Assembly: GCA_028284365.1 (NCBI GenBank)
Contig: JANQRW010000045.1
Span: forward strand, 1-54,376
DNA: 54,376 nucleotides
Reading direction: 5' to 3'
From: Marinicella sp.
GTDB taxonomy: Bacteria > Pseudomonadota > Gammaproteobacteria > Xanthomonadales > Marinicellaceae
Part shown: positions 1 through 54,376 of the stretch, one piece after another
How the letters are laid out: every line of letters starts with the position of its first letter
How positions within the stretch are numbered: the first letter of the stretch is position 1
Notes under the pieces: model-generated
Told to the model about the DNA's origin: nothing
Databases searched by the model: none
What the model saw: the letters and a program-made list of their open reading frames with translations, nothing else
Translations under genes and position numbers: made by a program

Positions 1-95
1 TCGAGTCTGGAACAGAGACCGACGCCTATAGGGATATAGGTGTTAGAGTCGAGTCTGGAACAGAGACCGAAGACCTAAGAGTATTCCTTTTTCAA
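1..95 (+). repeat. 3' part of dispersed structured repeat (copy A)
   Basis: The first bases hold two copies of a 22-base unit, at 1-22 and 49-70, each with a small GTCT/AGAC hairpin. A second hairpin lies between them (CCTATA-ggga-TATAGG, 25-40). The block ends in AGACCTAAGAGTATTCCTTT at 71-90, nearly identical to the ends of the elements at 15936-15957 and 34557-34578. The 5' part of this copy would lie outside the window. No coding potential was seen. Confidence 0.7.
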
Positions 96-13444: not shown

Positions 13445-13474
13445 GTCATCTTCGGGCTTGACCCGGAGATCCAT
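13445..13474 (-). repeat. 30-bp palindromic intergenic repeat, copy 1
   Basis: On the minus strand it begins ATGGATCTCCGGGTC and ends AGATGAC. It differs from copy 2 (14151-14180) at two of 30 positions and is inverted relative to it. The sequence belongs to a repeat type (GGGTCAAGCCCG core) common between genes in many proteobacteria. Confidence 0.85.
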
Positions 13475-13535
13475 TTTTAAACGAAGCTATTGAATTGCAA
13501 AACAGAAACTTCTCTCCAAACGACTGATTCTATTT

Positions 13536-13919: not shown

Positions 13920-14352
13920 TGATATATCCTTGCTATTTGAATTTGGATTAACGTGCGGTTTAATGGATATAATTCAAGTGTGTCATCACTGAAATGCTTT
14001 TTAACCAAGCGTTTAACACAACGCTCAAGCACTGTTATTTTCAATTCAAGGTTGAGCTGGATTTATGTTTTAAGCGATTCATAGAAGATAATTCTTTGAT
14101 TGTAAAAACACAGCTTCTAACTGATTTGTAATACCCAGCATCTAGTTATAATGGATCCCCGGGTCAAGCCCGAGGATGACAACTGGTTGGTTTAAATCAC
14201 ACAACCGTTAAAGTACGTTATTACTATTAAATAACTAGATAAAAATAGATGGTTTCATTTTTATCTCGAATATATCGAACAATGATACGGAAATAGCCAT
14301 CAACGATAACCTAAACGAAAATGCATGGTATTCCTTAGCATAATCAAAAATA
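13920..14352. other. 433-base non-coding stretch
   Basis: It holds the promoter side of the orphan gene and repeat copy 2 at 14151-14180. No other open frame with a ribosome site was seen. Base composition is AT-rich. Confidence 0.6.
14151..14180 (+). repeat. 30-bp palindromic intergenic repeat, copy 2
   Basis: ATGGATCCCCGGGTC through AGGATGAC. It is the inverted partner of 13445-13474, with 676 bases between them that contain one orphan gene. Confidence 0.85.
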
Positions 14353-15804: not shown

Positions 15805-15957
15805 GGAAAGCTGCTGAGCAGCTTGACCGGCGCACTTGGTTGGTGAGCGATAGCGAATCAGAAAGTGTAAGCCCGAGGTAGTAAGACATGCTCGCTGTGG
15901 TCACTTTCACTTTTGTCAGGAACAAAAGTGAATAAAGACCCAAGAGTATTCCTTTTG
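15805..15957 (+). repeat. Dispersed structured repeat (copy B)
   Basis: It starts with the hairpin AAGCTGC-TGA-GCAGCTT (15808-15824), then GACCGGCGC and GGTTGGTGAGCG. Next come a GAAAGTG/CACTTTC pair, an 11-bp perfect hairpin TTCACTTTTGT-cagga-ACAAAAGTGAA, and the 3' box AGACCCAAGAGTATTCCTTT. It fills most of the gap between ubiG and the merC-like gene. No open frame fits it. Confidence 0.8.
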
Positions 15958-25682: not shown

Positions 25683-25850
25683 GTGTATCTAACTACTTCG
25701 AACGGGCTACGGTATTCAAGCAAGACTTCGATCCTTGATCCGTTGAGGATTCTACCTCCCCCATCCATGGGGTCGCCTTGGTATACCACCAAATCGCCTT
25801 ACTTTCATTACCTGCCCTCACCTTCTCTGATTAGCTGTCGCTCACCAACC
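25683..25850 (-). repeat. Structured intergenic element, divergent relative of the dispersed repeat (copy E)
   Basis: On the minus strand it opens with GGTTGGTGAGCG, an AATCAGA box and an AGGTAATGAAAG box. These match copy B (GGTTGGTGAGCG, AATCAGA, AGGTAGTAA) and in part copy C (CAGGTGATGAA). A CCCCA-tgga-TGGGG hairpin and an AATCCTC...GGATCGAAG region follow. It lacks the AAGAGTATTCC end box. Its first bases overlap the last codons of the peptidase gene. Confidence 0.55.
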
Positions 25851-27647
25851 ACATTGACGCCCTTGGTTTTGTTCATCTAACCAAGATTTCAATGGTGCAA
25901 AATAGTCAACCACTGCAGTGGCATCCATTTCACGTGAATTAGCAATCACTTCCATTGCATCTTGCCATGGTTTTTCAGCACCCATTTCCAACACTTTGAT
26001 TAATTTTTCACCCGCAGCCTTATTGTTGTAGATAGAACAACGGTGCAAATCGCCTTCAAAACCAGCAGCTTTACACAGTTCACGATGAAATTGGAACTGT
26101 AAAATATGCGCTAAGAAATACCGTGTGTAAGGTGTGTTACCCGGGATGTGGTATTTCGCACCTGGATCAAAGTGCTTTTCGCTGCGTTCATTCGGTGCTT
26201 TGATGCCTTGGTATTTATTACGTAAAGCCCACCAACCGGCATTGTATTCTTCAGGTGTGATTTCACCATTGAATACTTTCCAACGCCATTGATCGACCAA
26301 TAAACCAAATGGAACAAAAGCAATTTTTTCCAAGGCTTTTTTCATCAACATACCCAGATCATTTGAAGAAGCTGGAATTTCATCAATCAGACCTATTTCC
26401 TTAAAGTAAGAGGGTGTAATTGACAAGGCCACGGTATCGCCAATGGCTTCATGGAAACCGTCATTGGCACCGGTGCGATACAGGATGCTCTTGTCATTGT
26501 ATGCACGCTGGTAGAAGTTATGCCCCAACTCGTGGTGAATGGTTACAAAGTCTTCGTAATCCTCTTTGATGCACATTTTCATGCGAATGTCATCAACATT
26601 ATCAATGTTCCAAGCACTCGCGTGACAGACCACATCACGGTCTTGTGGTTTAGTAAATAATGACCGTTTCCAGAAAGTTTCTGGCAGTGGTGGCAGCCCC
26701 AAAGAGGTGAAAAAACCTTCTGCAGTTTTGGTCATTTTCTTGGCATCATAATCGTGTTCAGCCAACAGCGCTGTAACATCAATGGTTGAGCCAGCATCTT
26801 CAGGTTTAACCAAGTCGTAAACGCCAGTCCAGTCCTGTGCCCACATATTACCCATTAAATGAGCAGGAATCATGCCATCATCGCCCATGATTTCTTCGCC
26901 ATAATGTTCGGTTAACTTGGTACGAACATGACATTGTAGCGAATCATACAGGGGTTTAACTTGTGCCCATAAGCGGTCTAACTCTTGAGGAAATTCACTG
27001 GCAGGCATGTCATACCCTGCGCGCCACATGGCACCGGTATCGTCATAACCCAAAGCTTGTGCACCTTCATTGGCCAACTCAACCATTCGTTCGTATTTGT
27101 CACGCATATCCGGTGAAACTGTGCGCCAGCCTTGCCATGCTTCTAACAGCTCTTTGTGGTCGCGAGATTCGGCTATGGTTTTAGACAACTGACCTAAAGT
27201 TTGACACTGATCATCAAGACAGTATTTTCCTGCACCATACATGGCTTCCAGCTTGGCCATTATTTGGGCCAGCTCAGCATTTTTTTCAGCATCATCGGGG
27301 GCCGCCAATGTTAAACTGCCTTTGATGATGTTCAACCGTCGGCGCATGTCATCAGACAGTTTTAAACCATTAAATTTCTTGGCTTCGTTAGCAAACTTGA
27401 CTGATAAAGCACCCATTTTCTCTATGCTCTTAGCACCCAACCAAATGGTGTCATCTGTGATGAAGTTGGCTTGTACCCATGCCACTCTGGCAGCATATTC
27501 ACCTTCTTCAATATAGGTTTTCTCAACTTTATCCAAAAACGCCTGGGCATCGGCCACAGTCACACCAGCAGGTGCCTTCTTATTCATGGTGTTGTGCTGG
27601 CATGCCATCAATGACATCGCCAAACACAAAGCTATTACATTCTTCAT
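25842..27647 (-). CDS. M2 family peptidyl-dipeptidase (ACE-like) lipoprotein
   Basis: About 601 residues from the ATG at 27645-27647; a TTG at 27665 would add six. The lipobox LMAC in the signal peptide predicts an outer- or inner-membrane lipoprotein. The zinc motif is HHELGH (H372, E373, H376), with the third ligand in GFHEAIGD about 25 residues later. M2 enzymes release C-terminal dipeptides. A single catalytic domain is present, as in bacterial ACE homologues. The last codons (CGW) coincide with the start of a repeat element. It probably feeds on peptides in the periplasm. Confidence 0.95.
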   Translation of the reverse strand: MKNVIALCLAMSLMACQHNTMNKKAPAGVTVADAQAFLDKVEKTYIEEGEYAARVAWVQANFITDDTIWLGAKSIEKMGALSVKFANEAKKFNGLKLSDDMRRRLNIIKGSLTLAAPDDAEKNAELAQIMAKLEAMYGAGKYCLDDQCQTLGQLSKTIAESRDHKELLEAWQGWRTVSPDMRDKYERMVELANEGAQALGYDDTGAMWRAGYDMPASEFPQELDRLWAQVKPLYDSLQCHVRTKLTEHYGEEIMGDDGMIPAHLMGNMWAQDWTGVYDLVKPEDAGSTIDVTALLAEHDYDAKKMTKTAEGFFTSLGLPPLPETFWKRSLFTKPQDRDVVCHASAWNIDNVDDIRMKMCIKEDYEDFVTIHHELGHNFYQRAYNDKSILYRTGANDGFHEAIGDTVALSITPSYFKEIGLIDEIPASSNDLGMLMKKALEKIAFVPFGLLVDQWRWKVFNGEITPEEYNAGWWALRNKYQGIKAPNERSEKHFDPGAKYHIPGNTPYTRYFLAHILQFQFHRELCKAAGFEGDLHRCSIYNNKAAGEKLIKVLEMGAEKPWQDAMEVIANSREMDATAVVDYFAPLKSWLDEQNQGRQCGW

Positions 27648-27722
27648 GGTTTTTATTTGTCCCAATAATAAAACGCCGCTATTCTACAACAAACCCAGCC
27701 ACATTGCCTGAATCAGAAAACA

Positions 27723-34360: not shown

Positions 34361-34578
34361 AAGGAGAGCCGATGATCGGCTCGACCGGCGCTCTTGGTTA
34401 GGCAGAGAGTGGAATTAAAGCGGTTTTGCAAAGCAAAGAAGCTTTAATGTAATGAACAATCAGCCGTGAGCGAAGGCCAGGTGATGAACGATTGCTGATT
34501 TTTGCCAAGCAAAATAAAGCATGAGGGAATGCCGTAGGCCGTGAATCAGAAAGAGCAAGCCCCAAGAGCATTCCTTTA
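34361..34578 (+). repeat. Dispersed structured repeat (copy C), the only full-looking one
   Basis: Order: hairpin GAGCCGA-TGA-TCGGCTC (34366-34382), GACCGGCGC and GGTTAGGC, then the nested hairpin ATTAAAGC ... TTTGC-aaa-GCAAA ... GCTTTAAT (34414-34448). Next come TGTAATGAAC, an AGGTGATGAA box, a TTTTGC-caa-GCAAAA hairpin, an AATCAGAAAG box and the 3' box CAAGAGCATTCCTTTA. It lies between two hypothetical genes. No open frame fits. Confidence 0.85.
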
Positions 34579-54278: not shown

Positions 54279-54376
54279 GGAGAGCTGCTGAGCAGCTCGA
54301 CCCGCCGAGCCGGTTAGGCAGAGTATGAAATCATGGCGGTTTGCCGCAGGCAAGAAGCCTTGATGTAATGCTCGAT
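54279..54376 (+). repeat. Dispersed structured repeat (copy D, cut by the window end)
   Basis: Hairpin GAGCTGC-TGA-GCAGCTC (54282-54298), GACCCGCC and GGTTAGGC, then nested hairpin ATCATGGC ... TTGCC-gca-GGCAA ... GCCTTGAT (54330-54364) and TGTAATG. It aligns base by base with copy C without gaps over this length. Differences are mostly compensatory in paired positions. Confidence 0.85.

Follow-up and report, generated by a model that had tools for sequence, protein, structure and literature searches.

Our study revealed a family of mobile repeats in the genome of a Marinicella sp. that is real, covarying, strand-biased and modular, with clean insertion at three junctions. The copies are probably best explained as a family of non-autonomous, fold-dependent mobile elements that are moved by an enzyme acting in trans. 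The window analysed is a stretch of 54,376 nt, contig C3 of the host genome (G000), which comprises 3.11 Mb in 91 contigs and is 99.84 % complete. Other G numbers denote genomes of the order sample, and L numbers denote loci.

A preliminary description of the window had drawn attention to a 7-bp stem with a TGA loop that opens three dispersed copies, B, C and D. These hairpins are present as described (AAGCTGC-TGA-GCAGCTT in B, GAGCCGA-TGA-TCGGCTC in C and GAGCTGC-TGA-GCAGCTC in D), the changes on both arms at positions 1, 5 and 7 of their stems can be read directly from the sequence, and a repeat finder grouped the hairpin copies independently into families D3 and D5. The hairpin forms the left end of an element with three arms, which spans GGA to CCTT, and the interval 34361–34578, which had been singled out, frames copy C within two bases of its true ends. 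Scanning the window with a covariance model, R1, gave four matches (Table 1). The claim that the family lies only between genes held for copies A to D when judged against ORFs of at least 100 aa (short overlapping mechanical ORFs aside), but not for copy E, which overlaps an ORF. No Rfam family matched the window, in line with the earlier remark that no repeat, ribozyme or riboswitch was recognized in it, and a low-threshold Rfam search of three loci gave 17 hits at E<5, all under their gathering scores. Comparison with integron attC sites by eye placed GTTAGGC in copy C where copy B has GTTGGTG.

Table 1. Positions in the window of the repeat copies, their parts and the overlapped ORF
Feature	Position	Strand	Description
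Copy A	1–89	+	Right part, cut by contig start; repeated units with 48-nt spacing, then AAGAGTATTCCTT
Copy B	15805–15954	+	Complete minimal element, 150 nt; R1 162.7 bits, E 2e-45, a score partly by construction as B (L037) was among the 40 sequences that built R1, and C and D were not
Copy B, left hairpin	15805–15828	+	
Copy B, second arm	15829–15873	+	
Copy B, third arm	15888–15949	+	3′ tail thereafter
Copy E	25767–25885	-	Decayed; R1 E 0.0023
ORF overlapped by copy E	25842–27665		Last 44 nt (3′ end) overlapped; stop codon falls in element-like sequence GGTTGGTGA of copy E
Copy C	34363–34576	+	Complete, 214 nt; scaffold plus inserted hairpin module(s); GGAGAGC...GCATTCCTT, flanked by CTAA and TATT
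Copy C, left-end hairpin	34363–34386	+	GG-A-GAGCCGA-TGA-TCGGCTC-GA-CC
Copy C, R1 match	34363–34445	+	Left part, E 5e-7
Copy C, right end	34561–34576		Exact pattern match
Copy D	54279–54376	+	Left part only, cut by contig end
Copy D, R1 match	54279–54361	+	E 8e-8

Dozens of copies had been named as support for a dispersed family, and the host genome contained 63 exact matches to the left-end pattern compared to none for the reversed control, so that these left ends are not due to chance. The right-end pattern gave 89 exact matches, at least one of which (L318) lacks element context and is a chance match, and 140 matches when up to one mismatch was allowed, against five for the control. Element sequence was found in the first 60 nt of 49 of the 80 host contig starts examined, which identifies the element as a main cause of assembly breaks. 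An exact right end followed within 600 nt for 19 of the 63 exact left ends, 33 were cut by a contig end and 11 had no exact right end within 8 kb. None had its next exact right end at 0.6–8 kb, where a long gene-bearing copy would place it, though 33 run off their contigs; the sequence scans for copies reached up to 520–700 nt. Because these 33 copies are truncated, an assembly gap may conceal a long one.

Comparison of 24 minimal copies defined a common scaffold of 149–151 nt, running from GGARAGC to CCTT or similar. The consensus of an alignment (A1) of 40 minimal copies, drawn from ten genomes within the genus, contains 42 pairs in six helices, forming three structured arms. The left-end hairpin begins at the first base of the element, where GG is paired with CC, the stem of the second arm bears a tandem G.A mismatch (GGTTGGTGAGC...GCGAATCAG) and the third arm is long. 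The preliminary description had proposed that the fold is kept by covariation, and in A1 98.6 % of 1676 pair cells were paired compared to 89.1 % in shuffled alignments and 35–41 % with slid partners, where the shuffles ignore relatedness, the slid partners preserve it and the structure was derived from the same sequences. Two-sided change was seen at 18 of the 42 pairs (13.8 shuffled, 3–6 slid) and in 154 cells (40.4 shuffled); the count of further pair types was no higher than in the shuffles, 281 of 500 of which reached it. In helix 1, the left-end hairpin, 97.5 % of cells were paired and five of nine pairs had changed on both sides.

The strand kept foldable appears to be the plus strand. 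This is favoured because the non-Watson–Crick cells of A1 comprise 31 G.T against 10 A.C (with 12 other mismatches), and because two pairs are fixed as wobbles, which would read A.C on the opposite strand. Folding energy alone does not choose the strand, as both strands of copies B and C fold better than shuffled sequences (z of -4.6 on the plus and -2.8 on the minus strand for B; -3.0 and -3.2, respectively, for C). Tandem G.A mismatches are found repeatedly in the arms and modules, as are C-GAA-G loops (GCGAAGC). GCGAAGC forms an unusually stable DNA mini-hairpin, a stability that would fit a single-stranded DNA form.

Mobility was examined by joining the flanks of 11 copies, one of them truncated, and searching for these in seven sister genomes, after which seven loci were compared. 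The element proved to be present in one species and absent in another at orthologous sites, with empty sites in sister genomes. Three of the five comparable loci gave clean junctions without duplication or loss: L182, filled in G002 and empty in G018 (TCTATTCTCAAT^ACCTAA); L191, filled in G018 compared to G006, G009 and G002, the last two with one extra T in a T run; and L189, filled in G002 compared to G009, where the ends are unambiguous and GGA...CCTT was inserted after CCTC. The junctions at L178 (indels) and L180 (off by a base) are approximate, and L183 and L193 do not span. The L182 site is occupied in both G002 and G006. Copy B is absent from the orthologous place in G004, where the flanks are too diverged to place the junction.

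The insertions lie 3′ of C-N-N-N, with C at position -4 in 56 of 69 complete copies. Across 119 left flanks this base was C in 90, A in 15, T in 14 and G in none, and neighbouring positions were merely A/T-rich; in G041, which belongs to a different family of the order, it was C in all nine copies (of 12 rows) whose left end is intact. Testing 200 offset–length combinations in 69 flank pairs revealed no convincing target duplication, the lowest p values resting on two or three copies, and there was a weak excess of single- and double-base flank repeats (35 vs 27.6 and 13 vs 7.9, respectively). Insertion after terminators was considered and rejected as a general rule, with several cases in 43 left flanks and a mean z of -1.3.

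These data bear upon two further readings. A classical MITE, derived by internal deletion from a DDE insertion sequence, with target duplications and weakly repeated ends (GGARAGC / GGAATGC), would account for the short terminal inverted similarity, the A/T-rich intergenic sites and the insertion-sequence-like ends at some contig starts. However, there is no duplication at the three clean empty sites and none convincing in the 69 copies, only the left flank has a fixed base and the fold is kept across the whole scaffold, beyond the ends, so that we regard this origin as quite improbable. A multi-copy RNA gene or regulatory element, spread by ordinary recombination and selected for RNA function, would agree with the strong covariation and with the conserved tandem G.A loops and GGA-containing apical loop of the scaffold. 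It is very improbable given exact insertion at unrelated sites, the lack of an Rfam family, the lack of clear orientation bias to neighbouring genes among 60 complete copies (36 left tails, 28 right tails) and the absence of the scaffold from the places of B and C in other species, where no R1 match at E≤0.1 was found in 27 loci around B and C matches, some of which hold one flank only.

The earlier suggestion that a RAYT-like transposase drives the repeat is not supported in the host, where a genome this complete gave no Y1_Tnp (PF01797) match. Y1 was also unmatched in eight further element-bearing genomes of 18 (G003, G010, G012, G013, G014, G041, G104 and G108), and was present in the other nine, including the copy-rich G008, G006 and G018 and also G002; across the order, 112 of 151 genomes matched at E≤0.01. 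We therefore rejected RAYT/Y1 as the driver in the host genome, whereas it is possible in carriers with Y1. Reverse transcriptase was rejected as well, RVT_1 (PF00078) being absent from 16 of the 18 carriers (including G000, G012, G006, G018 and G002) and present only in G008 and G013. Neither domain was matched in G000 or in any of the other Y1-negative genomes except G013. No transposase was recognized by eye in the 25 largest clusters of flanking ORFs, and overall the Y1 and RVT_1 Pfam searches, the exact ends and the by-eye inspection of flanking ORFs revealed neither a mobilizing enzyme nor an autonomous copy.

A REP/BIME-type repeat mobilized by RAYT (a Y1 HUH tyrosine transposase) is a reading to which the high-copy intergenic hairpin with its tetranucleotide-like foot sequence GGAR, the duplication-free insertion and the frequency of Y1 in the order and in half of the carriers lend some weight. 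We consider it unlikely, as the Y1-negative carriers include G000 and G012, the two richest in exact left ends, the scaffold has three arms and ~150 nt, unlike the 20–40 nt of REP, the tag is GGAR rather than GTAG and the fixed base of the target is 4 nt beyond the element. An RNA-mediated element, SINE-like or intron-like, whose folded transcript enters DNA by reverse transcription or reverse splicing, is rather unlikely too: the one-strand fold with G.U-type wobbles, the precise ends and the exact, duplication-free insertion are in its favour, and the distribution of RVT_1 and the failure of any Rfam intron family to match the window are against it.

For a fold-dependent element moved in trans, the folded plus strand, as single-stranded DNA (or RNA), would be recognized by the supplied enzyme, which may cut both ends and join the element to A/T-rich target DNA, 3 nt downstream of a C. 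Such an enzyme would be neither a Y1 nor an RVT_1 protein detectable by Pfam models in the host, and may be highly divergent, of another kind or lost after a burst. Orientation showed no clear bias relative to local GC skew (34 of 80 positive, a weak test with short flanks) or to neighbouring genes, which would count against a single-stranded DNA intermediate; a replication-strand bias is often seen in IS200/IS605-like elements.

The Marinicella repeat works like REP, HEARO and MITE repeats, yet departs from each in at least one tested defining feature. REP/BIME sequences with RAYT (TnpA_REP) are described in parts of two papers as high-copy, intergenic, foot-tagged hairpins in mosaic arrays with one-strand recognition (PMC8266576, PMC3733652), and the Marinicella element is also high-copy, intergenic and mosaic, with a hairpin bearing a short foot tag. 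However, a section of the latter paper defines REP as a 20–40 nt palindrome tagged GTAG (PMC3733652), whereas the Marinicella scaffold has three arms and a tag that is neither GTAG nor CGTC, and the element inserts after CNNN in a host without a Y1 match. The same section names CGTC-tagged palindromes as a repeat class for which its authors found no dedicated transposase (PMC3733652). The Marinicella repeat is likewise without a transposase found, although those palindromes are short, carry another tag and lack a three-arm scaffold. Bacterial MITEs (QMITE2, CIR, ERIC and others) are characterized in part of a further source as short, non-autonomous, intergenic and foldable, as is the Marinicella element, with 7–9 bp direct repeats and 23–29 bp terminal inverted repeats in a model MITE (PMC10969869). 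In contrast, the Marinicella element has no duplication and its end bases match weakly. With IS200/IS605-derived elements it has duplication-free insertion and a left-end hairpin in common, and it differs in its single fixed target base and in the lack of a Y1 match in G000. HEARO or omega-RNA elements without an ORF (IscB, IS200/IS605 superfamily) are structured, non-coding and inserted in many copies free of duplication, all of which applies to the Marinicella element. However, it folds differently, and no HEARO appeared in the Rfam scan of the window or among the 17 hits at E<5 from three loci, so that membership of this group is not supported. An account of the IscB nuclease and its RNA is given in part of PMC9755519.

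We tentatively raise the possibility that the repeat represents a new class of bacterial mobile DNA, with a multi-arm folded strand, no target duplication, insertion 3 nt after C, an enzyme outside the Y1 and reverse transcriptase routes and interchangeable hairpin modules common to other element families. It has exactly defined ends, known empty sites and a fold that is strong and strand-specific, and the two genomes richest in exact left ends lack the enzymes usually blamed. With so defined a repeat in genomes without the usual enzymes, how structured bacterial repeats are mobilized becomes a directly testable question.

Named carriers of the left end are Marinicella sediminis F2, M. gelatinilytica S6413, an uncultured Marinicella and the gammaproteobacterial MAG 3_bin.26. 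These four supplied 40 of 55 stretches found in relatives, and the scaffold was present in all 40; among the remaining 15 it was present in only one, from another MAG apparently of the same sample as the carrier MAG. Over the order, at least 18 of 151 genomes, in at least four of 64 genera, matched R1 at E≤0.001, counts that are lower bounds as up to 20 candidates per genome were scored. Fifteen of these genomes belong to the genus of the host (G007, G013 and G015 with weak matches) and the others to families f10 (G041) and f8 (G104 and G108); G005, G019 and G024 of the order sample gave no match. Exact left ends were most numerous in G000 (63) and G012 (28), and seven G041 copies align at full length. 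G104 (L218, L222 and L223) displays tandem arrays with 113–117 nt units of related arms and the same kind of module. Among the 369 genomes of the class sample, G000 alone matched a second model, R2, at E≤1e-5, a weak negative with eight candidates scored per genome. Phages and plasmids gave no match to one 150-nt query each, and viral contigs gave none to two exact patterns. A literature search by title and abstract opening found no paper describing this repeat family, an absence that is not proof.

Complete copies are between 149 and about 490 nt long, the longer ones bearing extra hairpins at recurring places, namely inside the GAGC-loop-GCGA arm, between GGTT and GTGAGC, and in the apical loop of the last hairpin; units repeated with 48-nt spacing are a further kind of module. 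At one orthologous site (L182) that is empty in G018, the same scaffold is bare in G002 and carries a 48-nt module in G006, and this module difference shows how mosaic repeats change. The mosaic interiors would most likely result from exchange, by recombination or gene conversion, between copies that draw on a limited set of common hairpin modules.

Several other arrangements were seen among the modules. A 24-nt palindrome, CTTCGACTGAGCTCAGTGCAACGC, occupies the apical loop of the last hairpin at the host right-end loci L295, L303, L308 and L311; it also resembles a separate dispersed repeat, and a similar stretch occurs in L315. At L188 1795–1830 (G006:C2:421355-421503 and beyond), the right end CACACCTT is followed directly by AAGGTGTG, as if by a second copy tail to tail. 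G009 (L264 437–754, contig C311) contains a different element of ~320 nt with perfect 11-bp inverted ends (GGAGACCTTAG...CTAAGGTCTCC), which lies near the same insertion site (L182) and, by eye, contains one hairpin module of the Marinicella element.

Further repeats were also observed in the host. In the window, positions 13445–13488 and 14137–14180 form a 44-nt inverted repeat pair (82 %), 648 nt apart, with CGGGCTTGACCCGG, apparently of another repeat family. The starts of host contigs C34, C53 and C71, and of C52, C75 and C81, share two kinds of insertion-sequence-like ends (GGGGGAAAGGTCA and GGGGGGAAGGTCA), which are perhaps of IS3 type.
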